Of a DNA stretch of 64,000 nucleotides, positions 19,972 to 43,910 are shown in pieces; the first letter of the stretch is position 1; each line of letters begins with the position of its first letter. The notes beneath the pieces were generated by a model that worked only from the letters and a program-made list of their open reading frames with translations, searched no databases and was not told the DNA's origin. The DNA is from Bacteroidetes bacterium GWF2_33_38 (GTDB lineage Bacteria > Bacteroidota > Bacteroidia > Bacteroidales > GWF2-33-38). The stretch is from NCBI GenBank assembly GCA_001769505.1, contig MEOF01000039.1, forward strand, positions 21,177 through 85,176, written 5' to 3'. A program made the position numbers and the translations under genes.

Positions 19972-20108
19972 GTGAAAAACTAAAAACTAAAAGTGAAAAA
20001 TATTGAGAGATAAAGATAATTTGGATTTTAACTTTAGGCACTCCAAACTTCAAACTTTAGGCACTTTTCACGTTACAAACTTTATGAACTTTAAAACTTT
20101 ACAAACTA
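19972..20108. repeat. Heptamer-periodic spacer 1 of the Hdr operon
   Basis: The whole spacer parses into degenerate 7-bp units, for example gtgaaaa/actaaaa/actaaaa/gtgaaaa at its start and variants of aaacttt and taggcac later. It ends exactly at the HdrB-like ATG. The minus-strand ORF 19580-20053 that crosses it is a shadow. Confidence 0.6.
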
Positions 20109-21143
20109 ATGAGTAATTGGAAAAACTATCAAAAAGAAATTTGCGACGATAATTTTTATTATGCAAGAAGTTGTATTCGTCAGAATTTTTTTCCTGGTTC
20201 AGAAAATATTTTTGTAAAAATATTGCGTGAAGTTTTGAATAAAAATGTTTACGACGATGCTGAACATACAACCTGCACTGGAATTGGATATCATTCTGAT
20301 GTTGTTCCATTTGAAACAATTCAAACCGTTGTAGCTCGAAATTTTAGTTTAATGTCGAACAAAGGATTTGAAAATTTGGCAATTTCTTGCGTTACATCTT
20401 TCGGAATTTATACCGAAATAACCGAAACATGGAAACATTTTCCTGAAGAAGAACAAAAAATTCGTGGATTTTTGAAAAAATCTACCAATCGAGAATTTAT
20501 TCAACCGCTAATAATGTCACACTGCAGTGATATTTTTTACAAATTTAGAAACGAAATTTTCGAAAAAGCAAAATATTCATTGGTTAACAAAAACACAGGA
20601 AAACCGCTAAAAGTTGTTGAACATATTGGATGTCATTATGCAAAAATGTTTCCCGAAAAAGGAGTTGGTGGAGCAGAATTTCCTCAAGTTTTAGCTGGAA
20701 TGATTACTGCTTGGGGTGGCGAAGTTGTTGATTATCCTGAACGCAGACACTGTTGTGGCTTTGGTTTTCGACAATATTTGGTAAAAGCAAATCGTGGATA
20801 TTCAATTTCAAATTCGATTAAAAAGTTTGAAGCAATGAAACCTTACAAACCCGATTTTATTGTTGCAAATTGTCCTGGTTGTGCAATGTTTATGGATAAA
20901 TGGCAATACACAGCAAAAGAAATGAACGGCGAAACTTATGGCGAAAACGGCGAACAAATTCCTGTTTTAACTTACGAAGAAATGGCTGGTTTGGTTCTTG
21001 GATATAATCCTTGGGATTTAGGTTTACAAATGCATCAAATTGATTGTGAACCACTTTTGAAAAAAATGCATTATGAATATAATCCTGAAGATAAATTTAG
21101 AAATTTGAAGGGCGAAAAAATTGGAGAAGAGGCAAAAGGTTAA
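20109..21143 (+). CDS. HdrB-like CCG-domain protein with degenerate first motif
   Basis: 344 aa. The second CCG cluster motif is complete: CHYAKMF (about 176), RHCCGFG (about 218) and NCPGCAMF (about 257), the five cysteines that bind a non-cubane 4Fe-4S cluster in HdrB. The first motif is eroded: Cys in ARSCIRQNFFPG, TTCTGIGYHS where CC is expected, and ISCVTSF where CxxC is expected, so two of five ligands are gone. It should form the disulfide- or thiol-reactive subunit with HdrC- and HdrA-like partners. Substrate unknown; methanogen CoM-S-S-CoB is not expected in this lineage. Confidence 0.83.
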   Translation: MSNWKNYQKEICDDNFYYARSCIRQNFFPGSENIFVKILREVLNKNVYDDAEHTTCTGIGYHSDVVPFETIQTVVARNFSLMSNKGFENLAISCVTSFGIYTEITETWKHFPEEEQKIRGFLKKSTNREFIQPLIMSHCSDIFYKFRNEIFEKAKYSLVNKNTGKPLKVVEHIGCHYAKMFPEKGVGGAEFPQVLAGMITAWGGEVVDYPERRHCCGFGFRQYLVKANRGYSISNSIKKFEAMKPYKPDFIVANCPGCAMFMDKWQYTAKEMNGETYGENGEQIPVLTYEEMAGLVLGYNPWDLGLQMHQIDCEPLLKKMHYEYNPEDKFRNLKGEKIGEEAKG

Positions 21144-21267
21144 AGGCATAAGGCAAAAGAGAGAATTCAGAATTCAGGAGACAGAAGTCAGAAGTTGGAA
21201 ATTAGAAGTTGGAAAATAGAATTCAGAATAAAATTGCTAATTGATAATTATTAATTGATAATTGAGG
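21144..21267. repeat. Heptamer-periodic spacer 2 of the Hdr operon
   Basis: From 21163 to 21267 the DNA reads as 15 consecutive 7-mers in one register: gaattca, gaattca, ggagaca, gaagtca, gaagttg, gaaatta, gaagttg, and so on to attgata, attatta, attgata, attgagg. The plus strand is strongly purine-biased. The last unit contributes a GAGG ribosome-binding site for the HdrA-like gene. Confidence 0.75.
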
Positions 21268-21277
21268 GGCTAAAAAA

Positions 21278-22300
21278 ATGAAAAGCGTAATTGTAATTGG
21301 TGGCGGTATTGCAGGAGTTGAAACAGCAAATCAACTTTCGATGTTTGGACACAAAGTTTTGTTGCTCGAAAAAGATGCAGAATTGGGTGGAAAAATAAAT
21401 AATTGGCATTGTTTATTTCCAAATTTGAGAGATGCAAGCGAAATAAAATCGTACATAAATAAAATTGCTGACGAAAATCGTTTTGCAATAAATAGAAACA
21501 CCGAAATTGTAAAATTCACAAAAAATAATCAACTTCATCCAATTGACCAAAATGGCGATGAATACGAAGCTGATGCTGTAGTTTTAGCAACAGGTTTTAA
21601 ACTTTTTAGAGCCGAACGAAAAGAAGAATATGGTTACAATATTTACAAAAATGTAATCACATCTGCTGATTTGGAACGAAAATTCAACGAAAAAAGTTTA
21701 GATACAAAAAATCCGCCAAGGCGAATTGCCATTGTGCATTGCGTAGGTTCTCGTGACGAAAAATCGGGAAACCACTATTGTTCAAAAGTTTGTTGCATTA
21801 CAGGCGTGAAACAAGCCATAGAATTAAAAAAAACATTTCCTGACGCTGAAATAATTTGCTTTTATATGGATTTGCGTATGCACGGAAAAGGCTACGAAGA
21901 ATTGTATCGTGAAGCACAAGAAAAATATTTCGTGCAATTTATTCGTGGACGAGTTTCTGAAGCATCAGAAAATATTGATAAATCAATTCAAATTAAAGCT
22001 GAAGATACACTTTCGGGAAAACCGTTAAAAATGACTGTTGATATGATGGTTTTGTTGGTTGGAATGGAAATGGAAAAAACATCAGTTTCGTTGGTTTCTG
22101 GTTGCAATGTTGAATTTGGAAACAATCGTTTTTTCAACGTAAAAGACGAATTTACACAACCAAATAGCACTTTAGAAAAAAATATTTTTGTTGCAGGAGC
22201 TTGTTCATCGCCAATGAATATTTCGGAAGCAATTTTGAGTGCAAGATCAACAGCTGTGGAAGTAAATAAATATCTAGGTAATATGGAAATAAAGGTATAA
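21278..22300 (+). CDS. HdrA-like FAD subunit (short form)
   Basis: 340 aa with a GAGGGG ribosome-binding site 8 bp before the ATG. FAD site VIVIGGGIAGVETANQLSMFG at 4-24, LLEKDAELGGKINNW, and the HdrA hallmark HCVGSRDEKSGNHYCSKVCC (about 148-167). It ends with the FAD-binding motif FVAGACSSPMNISEAILSARS. It lacks the N-terminal and C-terminal ferredoxin domains found in methanogen HdrA and QmoB, so its 4Fe-4S partners must be the separate HdrC-like proteins. It would be the flavin hub of the complex; whether it bifurcates cannot be judged from sequence. Confidence 0.88.
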   Translation: MKSVIVIGGGIAGVETANQLSMFGHKVLLLEKDAELGGKINNWHCLFPNLRDASEIKSYINKIADENRFAINRNTEIVKFTKNNQLHPIDQNGDEYEADAVVLATGFKLFRAERKEEYGYNIYKNVITSADLERKFNEKSLDTKNPPRRIAIVHCVGSRDEKSGNHYCSKVCCITGVKQAIELKKTFPDAEIICFYMDLRMHGKGYEELYREAQEKYFVQFIRGRVSEASENIDKSIQIKAEDTLSGKPLKMTVDMMVLLVGMEMEKTSVSLVSGCNVEFGNNRFFNVKDEFTQPNSTLEKNIFVAGACSSPMNISEAILSARSTAVEVNKYLGNMEIKV

Positions 22301-22417
22301 GGATATAAGGGAATAAGTAGAGAAATTCATCGTTGATTTTCCTTATTTCCTCTATAACCCTATTTCCCTATATCCTTTTACTCATAACTTTTCACTCATA
22401 ACTCTTAACTTAACAAA
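22301..22417. repeat. Heptamer-periodic spacer 3 of the Hdr operon
   Basis: Between 22341 and 22417 eleven 7-mers run in register up to the next ATG: ccttatt, tcctcta, taaccct, atttccc, tatatcc, ttttact, cataact, tttcact, cataact, cttaact, taacaaa. The plus strand is pyrimidine-biased here. The first part (ggatata, agggaat) is its imperfect inverse and could fold back on it. Confidence 0.7.
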
Positions 22418-22750
22418 ATGGATTTCGGATTTGCACCAATAAAAACACGAGCAATAAATTACGACAAAAACGATGATAGAATTATTCATTATGTTTTGTC
22501 GCACGATGCATCGTTTAATGTTTGTCTTTCGTGTGGAAGTTGCACTGCGACTTGCATTGCAGGAAGTTTGACAAATTTCAATATTCGCAAAATGAACACT
22601 TTACTTCGTCGTGGCGAACCCGAAGGTTTGGAAATTGAAGTGAACAAATGTATGTTGTGCGGAAAATGTCATTTGGTTTGCCCACGTGGAATTAACACAC
22701 GAAATGTAATTATGCTGATTAAGAAAGCAATTTCTGAAATGAAAAAATAA
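22418..22750 (+). CDS. Second HdrC-like 4Fe-4S protein
   Basis: 110 aa. Two 4Fe-4S motifs: CLSCGSCTATC (about 31-41) and CMLCGKCHLVCPRG (about 78-91), with the short helical region between them that is typical of HdrC. About half the length of the first HdrC-like protein in this cluster. It sits directly before the membrane subunit (6-bp gap) and after HdrA, so it probably wires the flavin subunit to the membrane subunit. An isolated ferredoxin role is less likely given the context. Confidence 0.85.
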   Translation: MDFGFAPIKTRAINYDKNDDRIIHYVLSHDASFNVCLSCGSCTATCIAGSLTNFNIRKMNTLLRRGEPEGLEIEVNKCMLCGKCHLVCPRGINTRNVIMLIKKAISEMKK

Positions 22751-22756
22751 AAAACT

Positions 22757-24511
22757 ATGTATTTCAACTATTTCATAATACCATTTTTTATCGGATTGTT
22801 AATTTTATTAGCAATTGTTTTTGTTCGATTTTCAGTTTGGATTGGAAGTCTTTCGAGATTGGAACACAAACGAATTTTGAAAAATATTTTCACTACAAAA
22901 ACACTTTCAGCCATTAAAGAAAGCTTTGTTGAAGGCTTGTTGCATCGCAAAATTTTCAAAACAAATCCTGTTTTGGGATATATGCACATGAGTTTGGCAT
23001 TTGGTTGGTTTTTATTGATTGTAGTTGGTCATATCGAAGCATTTGTACATTTCAATTCCGTTTTAGTTTCATCGCATATTCCAATTTTTTATCGATTTTT
23101 TATTACCGACGACCATTCAACATTTTTTCCATTTCTAATGGATTTACTTTTGCTGATGGTGCTTTCGGGCGTGGCTTTGGCGTATTTCAAACGTTTCAAT
23201 AAAAAAGCATTTGGAATGAAAAAAACTACCAAACTTAAAGCTCACGATTACATTGCTTTATCGTTTTTGTGGTTCGTTTTTCCATTGCGATTTTTAGCCG
23301 AAAGTTTCTCGGCAGGAATTCATCACAATGGAAGTTTTTTGACACAAACCGCAGGAAATTTTTTCGCAAATTTTCTTCCTTTAGATACACTTGCTTTGCC
23401 AACTTGGTGGGCATATTCGTTCGCTTTGGGCGGATTTTTTGTTGCACTTCCAACATCGAGATATATGCACATCCCGACAGAAATTTTGTTCATTTTCTTG
23501 AAACATTACGGAATAAAACTCAAAAAATCGTACAACGCATATTCACGAGTTCAAGTAAATTCGTGTTCGCGATGCGGAATTTGCATAAACAAATGTCCAT
23601 TATTGGATGCAAATATTACCACAACGCAATCGGTTTATATGCTTACAAAATTGCGTAAAAACGATTTGAGCGACGAAACTTTGTTCAATTGTTTGTTGTG
23701 CGGACAATGTCAAAATGCTTGTCCGGTTGACATCGGCTTGAACGATATTAGAACTTCTCGACGAATTCTTACCACCAAAGAATACAATTCTACCTACGAT
23801 TATTTAGAAAATAAAATTCACAAAAAAGCCGATGTAATCTACTTTGCAGGATGTATGACGCACTTAACTCCTGCCATAAAAAAATCGATGGTCGATATTT
23901 TTAACCACGTTGGTGCAAATTATTGGTTTATGGACGAAAACGAAGCTGCTTGTTGCGGACGACCGCTGATGACTGCTGGACAAAACCAAGCAGCACAAAA
24001 ATTAATTATTCAAAATCAACAAGATATTTTGGCTTCGGGAGCTAAAACTTTGGTTTTATCTTGCCCAATATGTTACAAAACTTTTAACGAAGATTATAAT
24101 TTGGGCGATATTAGAATTTTACATCATTCTGAATATATTTTGGAACTAATAAATGCAAATAAATTGCCAATAAATCAAACATTTACATCGGCTATTTATC
24201 ACGACCCTTGCGAGTTAGGACGTGGAAGCGGAATTTACGAACAACCACGCGAAGTGCTAAAAAATTATGTGAATTTGGTTGAACCAAATCGTGAAAAAGA
24301 AGACGCTTTTTGCTGTGGAGGAAGTCTTTCTAACATAAAAATTCAAATGAACGAACGCAACGATATTCGCGATAAAGTTTTAGATAATTATGCCAAAACT
24401 CCAAGCGATTTGCTCATTACCGCTTGCCCATTGTGCAAAAAAACTTTCACCAAAGGAAAAGACATTGAAGTTAAAGATATTGCCGAAGTTGTTGCGATGG
24501 ATTTGAATTAG
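22757..24511 (+). CDS. Fused cytochrome b (NarI/HdrE-like) - HdrD-like membrane subunit
   Basis: 584 aa. The N-terminal 240 aa contain five or six membrane helices with histidines suited to heme b (MHMSLAFGW, VVGHIEAFVH), like NarI, HdrE and DsrM. A ferredoxin domain follows: CSRCGICINKCP (about 272) and CLLCGQCQNACP (about 312). The C-terminal HdrD part has two CCG motifs: GCMTHLTP...ACCGRPLM...SCPICYK, and DPCELGRGS...FCCGGSLS...CPLCKK, both complete. It thus joins membrane heme b to two non-cubane clusters on one chain. Likely role: exchange of electrons between the membrane quinone pool and the soluble Hdr subunits. A REP-like inverted repeat follows the stop codon. Confidence 0.88.
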   Translation: MYFNYFIIPFFIGLLILLAIVFVRFSVWIGSLSRLEHKRILKNIFTTKTLSAIKESFVEGLLHRKIFKTNPVLGYMHMSLAFGWFLLIVVGHIEAFVHFNSVLVSSHIPIFYRFFITDDHSTFFPFLMDLLLLMVLSGVALAYFKRFNKKAFGMKKTTKLKAHDYIALSFLWFVFPLRFLAESFSAGIHHNGSFLTQTAGNFFANFLPLDTLALPTWWAYSFALGGFFVALPTSRYMHIPTEILFIFLKHYGIKLKKSYNAYSRVQVNSCSRCGICINKCPLLDANITTTQSVYMLTKLRKNDLSDETLFNCLLCGQCQNACPVDIGLNDIRTSRRILTTKEYNSTYDYLENKIHKKADVIYFAGCMTHLTPAIKKSMVDIFNHVGANYWFMDENEAACCGRPLMTAGQNQAAQKLIIQNQQDILASGAKTLVLSCPICYKTFNEDYNLGDIRILHHSEYILELINANKLPINQTFTSAIYHDPCELGRGSGIYEQPREVLKNYVNLVEPNREKEDAFCCGGSLSNIKIQMNERNDIRDKVLDNYAKTPSDLLITACPLCKKTFTKGKDIEVKDIAEVVAMDLN

Positions 24512-42367: not shown

Positions 42368-43528
42368 TTATGTATCTGATTTTATGATGATTTCGGAGAA
42401 AATATTTTCTGAATTTTCTAAAATATTCAAATAATAAATTCCTGTTTTGGGAATTTCGGTCGAATATATTTTGGATTCGCTTATTTGGGAGTCAAGTTTT
42501 TTAATTAAAATTATTCGACCTAAGTTATCGGTAATAATAACTTGAATATTCGTTAAATTATTATCATTGAAAATAATTTTGAAATCATCGAAAAATGGAT
42601 TTGGAGAAATTGTAATTTCAGTTTCTTGAGCATCAACAATAGTTACAGATTCTTTTAATAAAGTTGTTATTCCATTAAAATCAACATTCCACAAACGATA
42701 ATAATTTATTCCTATTTTAGCATATTCATCACAATATTTGTACTCAGAATTTGATTGATTTGTAGCACTAATTTCCGCAATTTTCGAGTAATTATTTGCA
42801 TCAAAACTTCGTTCAATAAAATAATAATTGTTGTTAATTTCAGTTTTCGAAATCCACGATATATTTACAGTCGATTTTTCTGCAACACAATTAAAAATAC
42901 TCAATTTTACAGGAAGCGTTGAATAAATAGTTGTATTTGCAGGAATTGAACTCGTGGGATTTATTCCAAAAGTTTCGCCAGCTCCAAAATACGAACCGCT
43001 TGTTGTAATAATTCCAACTCCTTTAATAATTCCGCCAAATCCGTTATCGAAATTTCCTCCAACAATCATTATTCCATCAACCACCACATTTATTGTGTTA
43101 TTTTTATTTTTAAAATCGCTTGAAATTGCCAAAACACCCGATGCTCGAACGTGTAATGTGCTTCCATTACTTAAAGTTAAGTTGCTCATATTCATAGTTC
43201 CATAAATATCGAGTGTTGCTCCATTTTGAACATCTATATCCAACGTTGTTAAAACTCCAGAACTATCAATTTGTAAAAAACCGTTCAAATTTGAACTTGT
43301 GAAATTTACCACGCTATGTTTTATTCTAATATTATCAGAAAAACTTGGAACTACGGGCGACCAAATTGATGCATTTGTCCAATTTCCATTTTGCAAACTT
43401 GTTACATTTGTTGAAAAAATTGATTTTGTGATTATTGTGAAGATAAAAAAAATACAAATACCTATGGAATTAATATTCTTCGTACTAGCAGGCTTGCTAT
43501 GAACTTCTATATAATTTATTGAGTTCAT
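42368..43528 (-). CDS. T9SS-sorted secreted protein, cargo with SPNP tail
   Basis: 386 aa. The N-terminus is unusual: about 20 hydrophilic residues before the hydrophobic signal (SIGICIFFIFTIITKSIFS). Residues 60-190 form a repeated beta-helix-like domain (GTLDIYGTMNMSNLTLSNGSTLHV-type strands with GG...FG spacing) as in G8-like surface proteins. Residues 205-290 look like a fibronectin/Ig-like domain (LSIFNCVAEKSTVNISWISKTE, DYYRLWNVDFNGITTL). The C-terminus ITISPNPFFDDFKIIF...SEIIIK is the type A T9SS sorting domain, about 80 aa. Extracellular or cell surface. It lies reversed relative to its neighbours inside a segment bracketed by a 34-bp direct repeat, so it may be an insertion. Confidence 0.82.
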   Translation of the reverse strand: MNSINYIEVHSKPASTKNINSIGICIFFIFTIITKSIFSTNVTSLQNGNWTNASIWSPVVPSFSDNIRIKHSVVNFTSSNLNGFLQIDSSGVLTTLDIDVQNGATLDIYGTMNMSNLTLSNGSTLHVRASGVLAISSDFKNKNNTINVVVDGIMIVGGNFDNGFGGIIKGVGIITTSGSYFGAGETFGINPTSSIPANTTIYSTLPVKLSIFNCVAEKSTVNISWISKTEINNNYYFIERSFDANNYSKIAEISATNQSNSEYKYCDEYAKIGINYYRLWNVDFNGITTLLKESVTIVDAQETEITISPNPFFDDFKIIFNDNNLTNIQVIITDNLGRIILIKKLDSQISESKIYSTEIPKTGIYYLNILENSENIFSEIIIKSDT

Positions 43529-43910
43529 AATATTTGTTGGTTTTTGTTATATTAATTTACGACTTTTAATCAGCGATAAATACAGCAAAAACACGTATTT
43601 CTTTCGTTAATTTTTAATTTTCATTTAATTATTAGAAATAGACGAAGGCATCGAGGTCAGAAATCAGAAAAATTCATTTAGGCTTTATCAGTAGATTTTA
43701 AAGGTAAATGTTTTTGTAAAAACAATCTCTTTAATGATATGCTCATTTCAAATTACTTTTCGGTTTAATTTTTGGTTATATGGTAATTTATTCATCTGAT
43801 TATCAACAAATAAGCAAATAAACGAATAAGCAAAATTTTCTGGTTTCTAAATAATTTGAGTATTAAAAAGCGAAAATTTCCACCGCACTAAATATCAAAA
43901 GTCAGGAAAA
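43529..43910. other. 382-bp spacer with repeat copy 2 and short periodic runs
   Basis: No ORF. It holds the second 34-bp repeat copy (43669-43702), immediately preceded by ggtcaga/aatcaga-type heptads, and an 8-mer run caaataag/caaataaa/cgaataag near 43807-43835. The sequence between 43703 and 43910 is AT-rich with no further feature seen. Confidence 0.6.
43669..43702 (+). repeat. 34-bp direct repeat, copy 2 (orphan duplicate of the Omp85 3' end)
   Basis: Identical to 42255-42288, same orientation, but here not attached to any ORF. Distance between copies is 1414 bp start to start. The flanking bases beyond 34 bp differ. Confidence 0.95.

Follow-up and report, generated by a model that had tools for sequence, protein, structure and literature searches.

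Periodic spacers in an Hdr operon of Bacteroidetes bacterium GWF2_33_38 as probable insertions of small mobile elements related to 23S rRNA intervening sequences

Three of the four gene junctions in the Hdr operon of Bacteroidetes bacterium GWF2_33_38 are long and periodic, and this DNA was probably added by a family of small mobile elements related to the intervening sequences (IVSs) of 23S rRNA. The operon lies in a 64,000-nucleotide stretch of contig MEOF01000039.1 (the window) and has the gene order HdrC1-HdrB-HdrA-HdrC2-HdrD; the host genes from HdrB to HdrD and the features between the genes are described on the plus strand. Spacer 1 (19972–20108) separates HdrC1 from the gene for an HdrB-like CCG-domain protein (20109–21143, PF02754), and the array of spacer 2 (21124–21267) leads to the gene for an HdrA-like flavoprotein (21278–22300, PF07992). 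Spacer 3 contains a left arm (22276–22313) that overlaps the 3′ end of HdrA, an inverted right arm of pyrimidine-rich octamers (22338–22376), located by a hairpin test and RNA folding, and heptamers of the ACTCATA/ACTTTTC type (22376–22417), located by TRF and parsing, that run up to the HdrC2 ATG. The genes for the HdrC2-like 4Fe-4S protein (22418–22750, Fer4 matches) and the HdrD-like CCG/Fe-S membrane protein (22757–24511, PF02754) are separated by a 6-bp junction without an array.

Spacer periodicity was measured by autocorrelation, as identity at a given lag compared with 2,000 dinucleotide shuffles. In spacer 1, identity at lag 7 was 0.469 versus 0.309 in the shuffles (z 3.9, 0/2000), with further excess at lags 8, 9, and 16; a purine-type array, GTGAAAAACTAAAAACTAAAAGTGAAAAA, is followed by pyrimidine-type 7/9-mers (AACTTTATG type). 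Spacer 2 gave 0.622 versus 0.320 (z 7.6, 0/2000), and lags 14 and 21 were raised too; the full array begins at 21124, still within the final codons of HdrB, ends at approximately 21267, and comprises ~20 heptamers in a single register (lag 7 0.657, z 8.6). Several words (GGCAAAA, GAATTCA, GAAGTCA, GAAGTTG, and ATTGATA) are chained in that one register, and an RBS-like GAGGGG adjoins the end of the spacer. Spacer 3 gave 0.418 versus 0.296 (z 3.0, 7/2000), but with the array start at 22276 included, lag 8 was the strongest (z 5.0, 0/2000). The earlier note had read all three spacers as consecutive heptamers in register. The lag-7 excess over shuffles was recovered in each of them, strongly in spacer 2 and moderately in spacer 1; the register of spacer 2 was confirmed over an array longer than the 15 units first counted, whereas the 11 heptamers attributed to spacer 3 hold only near the ATG, the remainder being mainly octamers. 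As direct 7-bp intergenic repeats above chance, the Hdr spacers are of the heptamer STRR type, with spacer 3 mainly of 8-bp period. Both HdrB and HdrA are also overrun by the arrays at their 3′ ends, and their terminal residues (IGEEAKG and GNMEIKV, respectively) are missing in orthologs; GNMEIKV is partly array encoded.

Of the three spacers, only spacer 3 has two inverted arms that exceed shuffles. The purine-rich octamers of the left arm (AGGATATA and AGGGAATA) form an imperfect hairpin with the right arm (22276–22313 with 22338–22376) that was reached by 0/300 dinucleotide shuffles and 0/300 heptamer shuffles, and the RNA fold of the spacer, at −29.3 kcal/mol, was matched by 5/200 shuffles. 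The purine/pyrimidine flip previously placed between spacers 2 and 3 in fact sits within spacer 3, between the hairpin arms. No significant hairpin was found in spacers 1 and 2 when arm pairing was compared with shuffles, and their RNA folding was no better than that of shuffles.

In at least 10 relatives with the HdrC1-B-A-C2-D order, the junctions are mostly 10–45 bp (C1-B), 1–45 bp (B-A), and 0–26 bp (A-C2) and free of arrays, whereas those of GWF2_33_38 are 137, 134, and 117 bp. It is because the junctions of relatives are short and array free that we regard the Hdr spacers as added DNA; the comparison is between Hdr proteins only ~40–70% identical, and the genome collections contain no congener that could show an empty Hdr site. 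The suggestion in the earlier note that the arrays may mark old insertions is supported by these junctions and by plasmid pairs, described below, in which arrays arrive with an inserted unit. Long junctions among the relatives were found in L012 (302 bp, B-A), L019 (650 bp, B-A), L022 (189 bp, C1-B), and L043 (94 and 145 bp). The L012 and L019 HdrB-HdrA spacers have no called 7-, 8-, or 9-bp array.

Genome statistics were taken on 0.41–0.77 Mb of GWF2_33_38 stretches. Within 411 kb of this genome, 33 lag-7 segments were found versus 6 in shuffles and 0 in coding DNA; the corresponding counts were 25, 7, and 3 for lag 8 and 18, 4, and 2 for lag 9, and lags 14, 16, and 21 were raised as well. 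The words GAATTCA/GGAGTCA/GAAGTTG, AGTTATG/AGTGAAA, TAATGTGA, and AACTTTATG recur in many spacers. Because arrays occur genome-wide, an outcome that the earlier note itself had named as refuting, the proposal of a feature specific to the whole Hdr operon is unsupported; a regulatory device particular to Hdr was ruled out on the same grounds and by the absence of arrays from orthologous operons. Spacers with an array alone had significant hairpins in 6/39 cases, a rate like that of other spacers, which rules out that every one of them is an intact two-armed hairpin. A purine-then-pyrimidine order was found in 31/42 such spacers compared with 136/262 other spacers. The window has another intergenic array at 43397–43910, made of 8-bp units (CAAATAAG), which is less pronounced than those of the Hdr spacers. 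Elsewhere in the genome, one long intergenic region (L055:1273–2205) holds two near-identical direct copies of roughly 300 bp each, and two spacers (L062:13557–13793 and L062:15021–15168) share the insert CTAATTCCCTCTTGGCGAAGAGGGTTAGGGAGATTG, preceded in both by the same heptamer block; this insert is a candidate for the loop of an element without an open reading frame (ORF). An Rfam search of the window and three elements returned no match.

When spacer 2 was compared with 72,556 plasmids, 19 records matched, all of them cyanobacterial, so the likening of these spacers to the repeats of filamentous cyanobacteria was apt; several of the matches overlap an annotated four-helix-bundle/S23 gene. 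PF05635 is named after the ORFs found in 23S rRNA intervening sequences. Genes of this family (23S rRNA-intervening-sequence or four-helix-bundle protein; 4HB) number 14 in GWF2_33_38 and were found in 55/80 relatives and 0/14 control genomes. Five of the proteins were confirmed by Pfam (PF05635, 115–136 bits), and their matches to bAvd (PF22296, 27–39 bits) fell below the cut-off. Among solved structures, 2gsc (XCC0516 of Xanthomonas) is the nearest; it is a homopentameric ring (PMC4990558).

The 4HB loci were collected by profile search, and an arm score was calculated for each upstream flank against the reverse-complemented downstream flank. Scores of at least 16 were obtained for 13/14 4HB genes of GWF2_33_38 compared with 23/535 other genes (Fisher 5e-16). 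A wider set of 59 4HB loci covered Bacteroidota, cyanobacterial plasmids, Riemerella, Azospirillum, and Gemmatirosa; 41 of these scored higher than every one of 100 shuffles, and in 45 the arm's own partner ranked third or better. The arm-4HB-arm layout is also shared by the majority of copies in other Bacteroidota, in cyanobacteria, and in one Gemmatimonadota. Full elements have the PF05635 ORF and the complementary ends of an S23 IVS-like element. Among 60 loci, the best arm period was 7 in 38 and 8 in 13, with none assigned for 9, and the upstream flank was purine-richer than the downstream flank in 40/46. Arm words vary by element and agree inside one (AGTAGATG, TAGGGAG, AAGGCACT, TCAGAAG, and GGGTGTA), and words of spacer 2 also occur in 4HB arms of its own genome, e.g., L087. 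Array-only spacers matched own-genome 4HB arms better than the arms of other genomes (20.5 versus 16.1, p = 8e-5). Similarity between 4HB proteins did not correlate with arm word beyond close pairs (Mantel 44/300), which argues against a protein that reads one specific word; recognition, if any, is therefore likelier to be of the stem. The 4HB genes were in sense orientation in 36/40 cases, as often as operon genes in general (238/270), and this orientation was dropped as a sign of RNA targeting. An IVS proper is located in a 23S rRNA helix, and its stem is excised from the transcript by RNase III. The 4HB elements lie between protein-coding genes, not in a 23S rRNA helix, and are therefore called IVS-like. 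A PF05635 search found no 4HB gene in the window, so the Hdr spacers can only be ORF-less derivatives.

Arrays and 4HB genes co-occur across genomes. The density of lag-7 arrays per 10 kb of intergenic DNA was 0.21 in 12 4HB-negative order-mates versus 2.8 in 4HB-rich genomes, the latter taken from arbitrary contigs without a called 4HB gene; the counts are small (one and five arrays, respectively), and the two sets also differ in lineage and GC. With lags 7 and 8 combined, 10 arrays were found in the 4HB-rich set and 2 in the 4HB-negative set (p = 1e-4), with the same differences in lineage and GC.

In near-identical Nostocales plasmids with and without the unit, the arms and the 4HB gene arrive together in array-free junctions. 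Eight related Nostoc plasmids have one operon in common, with the genes g4-g3-g2-g1. In L096 and L145, an arm-4HB-arm unit separates g3 from g2, which in five other plasmids are 3–4 bp apart, and TTCTA is present at both ends of the unit as a 5-bp duplication. A different 4HB element is inserted between g2 and g1 in L146, with a duplication that is only approximate, and in L145 an ORF-less arm-loop-arm insert breaks the 4HB gene. The g4-g3 spacer is 15–16 bp in some plasmids and ~120–290 bp of nested arms in others. At the trb site, the empty plasmid L210 (97.9% identical flanks) reads AAAAAGTAATTAACAAATA in the context AAAAAGTAATTAAC, without an array, whereas the filled plasmids L133 and L213 read AAAAAGTAAT-element-GTAATTAAC, i.e., GTAAT-arm-4HB-arm-GTAAT with a 5-bp duplication; a decayed remnant is present in L212. 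Units with 4HB also split cas10/cmr3 and nrdB/nrdA, for which related plasmids have versions without 4HB; the cas6/cas4 case is less clean because its version without 4HB holds other DNA there. Filled and empty sites with a clean target duplication were thus found for Nostocales plasmid elements at two sites only (GTAAT and TTCTA). None was readable at L135, L097, or the nested insert of L145, and target duplications at L135 and L097 were dropped because the flanks are too diverged. The loops of the ORF-less elements in L142 and L145 contain CCCCCACT-type palindromes, and the enclosed loop differs from plasmid to plasmid where the arms are the same.

A full element of ~430–560 bp consists of a purine-rich array of degenerate 7- or 8-bp units, a PF05635 ORF, and an inverted, pyrimidine-rich copy of the array; the inverted arms allow the two ends to form one long stem that has the ORF in its loop. 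We propose that such elements enter gene junctions, including tight operons, and gene 3′ ends with a 5-bp target duplication; operons would survive because a stop codon or ribosome-binding site can be provided by the arms, which looks like a by-product of their purine richness. ORF-less arm-loop-arm elements and decayed or solo arms would be left as 7/8-bp periodic spacers throughout the genome, the Hdr three included. The unit would be transcribed with its arms paired, the 4HB protein would recognize the structure of the stem and not its word, and integration would most probably proceed via a 5-bp staggered cut made by an enzyme in trans. We know of no catalytic activity for the 4HB protein. 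We assign the Hdr spacers by inference to this IVS-like family, as members that lack the ORF or have decayed, most strongly for spacer 3 and more weakly for spacers 1 and 2.

The 23S IVS of Coxiella is 428 nt long with complementary ends, has GACAGAT heptamers immediately 5′ of its S23 ORF, and has been proposed to be what is left of a transposition event, though no mechanism was offered (PMC4990558). The IVSs of Leptospira and Coxiella resemble our elements in protein family (PF05635), in an ORF between complementary ends, and in size, and in Coxiella also in the tandem heptamers upstream of the ORF (PMC4990558). IVSs have been described inside rRNA genes, whereas our elements occur in many copies in protein-coding operons of chromosomes and plasmids, have ORF-less derivatives, and show 5-bp target duplications at two sites. 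Heptamer STRR and TAACTGA arrays are, like the Hdr spacers, intergenic 7-bp direct repeats with several words; in the available part of PMC4679880, STRRs are described as single-word repeats, without inverted arms around a 4HB gene. The same paper reports that heptamer arrays of cyanobacteria, Beggiatoaceae, and some Bacteroidetes adjoin start codons and lie, where longer, in spacers whose counterparts in relatives are shorter, and it gives translational, slippage, or rearrangement roles. The bAvd/Avd proteins of diversity-generating retroelements belong to the same four-helix-bundle fold family as 4HB (PF22296 below cut-off), but no reverse transcriptase or variable repeat was found in association with the 4HB elements, and six 4HB-rich genomes have no reverse transcriptase. 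MITEs and REPINs are likewise short non-coding inverted-repeat elements in gene junctions, and REPINs with RAYTs co-exist in the same genomes; the arms described here differ in being degenerate 7/8-bp arrays that change with each element, and no transposase with matching ends was found when RAYT flanks were compared. Our literature search, which left most subscription journals outside and priority therefore uncertain, found nothing that links heptamer arrays with S23 IVSs. Heptamer arrays and S23-bearing rRNA IVSs have both so far been without a clear origin or function. We tentatively suggest, as a possibility, that a distinct class of mobile element, with a PF05635 protein and freely evolving 7/8-bp arms read as stem and not as sequence, is the common source of rRNA IVSs and of the heptamer STRRs of cyanobacteria, Bacteroidota, and other phyla. 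Should the two be one and the same element, periodic spacers would be the marks of a widespread selfish element that inserts into operon junctions and leaves them intact, and the mechanism would be open to testing, as near-identical sites occur both filled and empty on plasmids of cultivable Nostocales. Ends that change freely yet remain complementary to each other would set a mobile unit apart from known transposable elements.

Degenerate heptamer arrays could also arise in non-coding DNA through replication slippage that favors 7-nt steps, and 4HB genes would then merely happen to sit in them. Heptamers are the most abundant 5–11 nt repeats in many bacteria, for which slippage was proposed (Mrazek 2007, as summarized in PMC4679880), and most array-only spacers are not hairpins, so that most would have to be decayed or one-armed elements. 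Spacer 2 holds one register while its words change; this counts against the element model, and growth by slippage would predict it. Set against this, the empty sites of 4HB insertions are array free, arms and 4HB form one unit with a 5-bp duplication, the arms match as element-specific inverted partners where slippage yields direct copies, and 4HB-negative relatives are nearly free of arrays. We consider slippage unlikely as the origin, but it may have contributed later to spacer 2 and may lengthen arms after insertion. A regulatory origin, in which the arrays are repeated binding sites or ribosome standby/RBS sequences that tune downstream translation, as proposed for TAACTGA repeats, is far less probable. 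Arrays often abut a start codon, upstream arms are purine rich, spacer 2 ends beside its RBS-like motif, and a translational role was put forward in PMC4679880; however, the words change between junctions of one operon and are missing in orthologous operons, arrays precede genes of unrelated function and one interrupts a gene in L145, and spacer 3 is pyrimidine rich directly before the ATG. We find no support for translation tuning as the main cause of the Hdr spacers.

The search for a partner enzyme for the 4HB elements covered reverse transcriptases and RAYTs and found none. Reverse transcriptase (PF00078) was present in 9/15 4HB-rich and 8/15 4HB-negative genomes; RT-dependent spread is disfavored because this distribution does not follow that of the elements. 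HUH enzymes act on hairpins, and Y1_Tnp was present in 15/15 4HB-rich versus 5/15 4HB-negative genomes; the heptamer elements could then be non-autonomous substrates of RAYT (Y1_Tnp/HUH) transposases, like REPINs, with 4HB as mere cargo. This co-occurrence may instead reflect repeat-permissive genomes, and most RAYT genes from relatives (L214–L233) have classical GC-rich REP palindromes at their flanks instead of heptamer arms. To our knowledge, single-strand HUH transposition leaves no target duplications. RAYT is therefore disfavored as the mobilizer, and we think it highly improbable that the elements are its substrates; the IVS-like family remains our preferred source of the Hdr spacers. 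The REP palindromes of L214–L233 represent a second hairpin-element system beside the heptamer-armed one. A 1266-aa ORF of GWF2_33_38 (contig C15, L058:10173–13973) resembles a restriction-modification methylase and contains an embedded Y1_Tnp/RAYT-like stretch and the repeated peptides KGINPLV and RGLIPLS, as if REP-like palindromes had been inserted in frame. More ORFs of >1100 aa with a Y1 match were seen in G002, G018, G042, G054, and G055.
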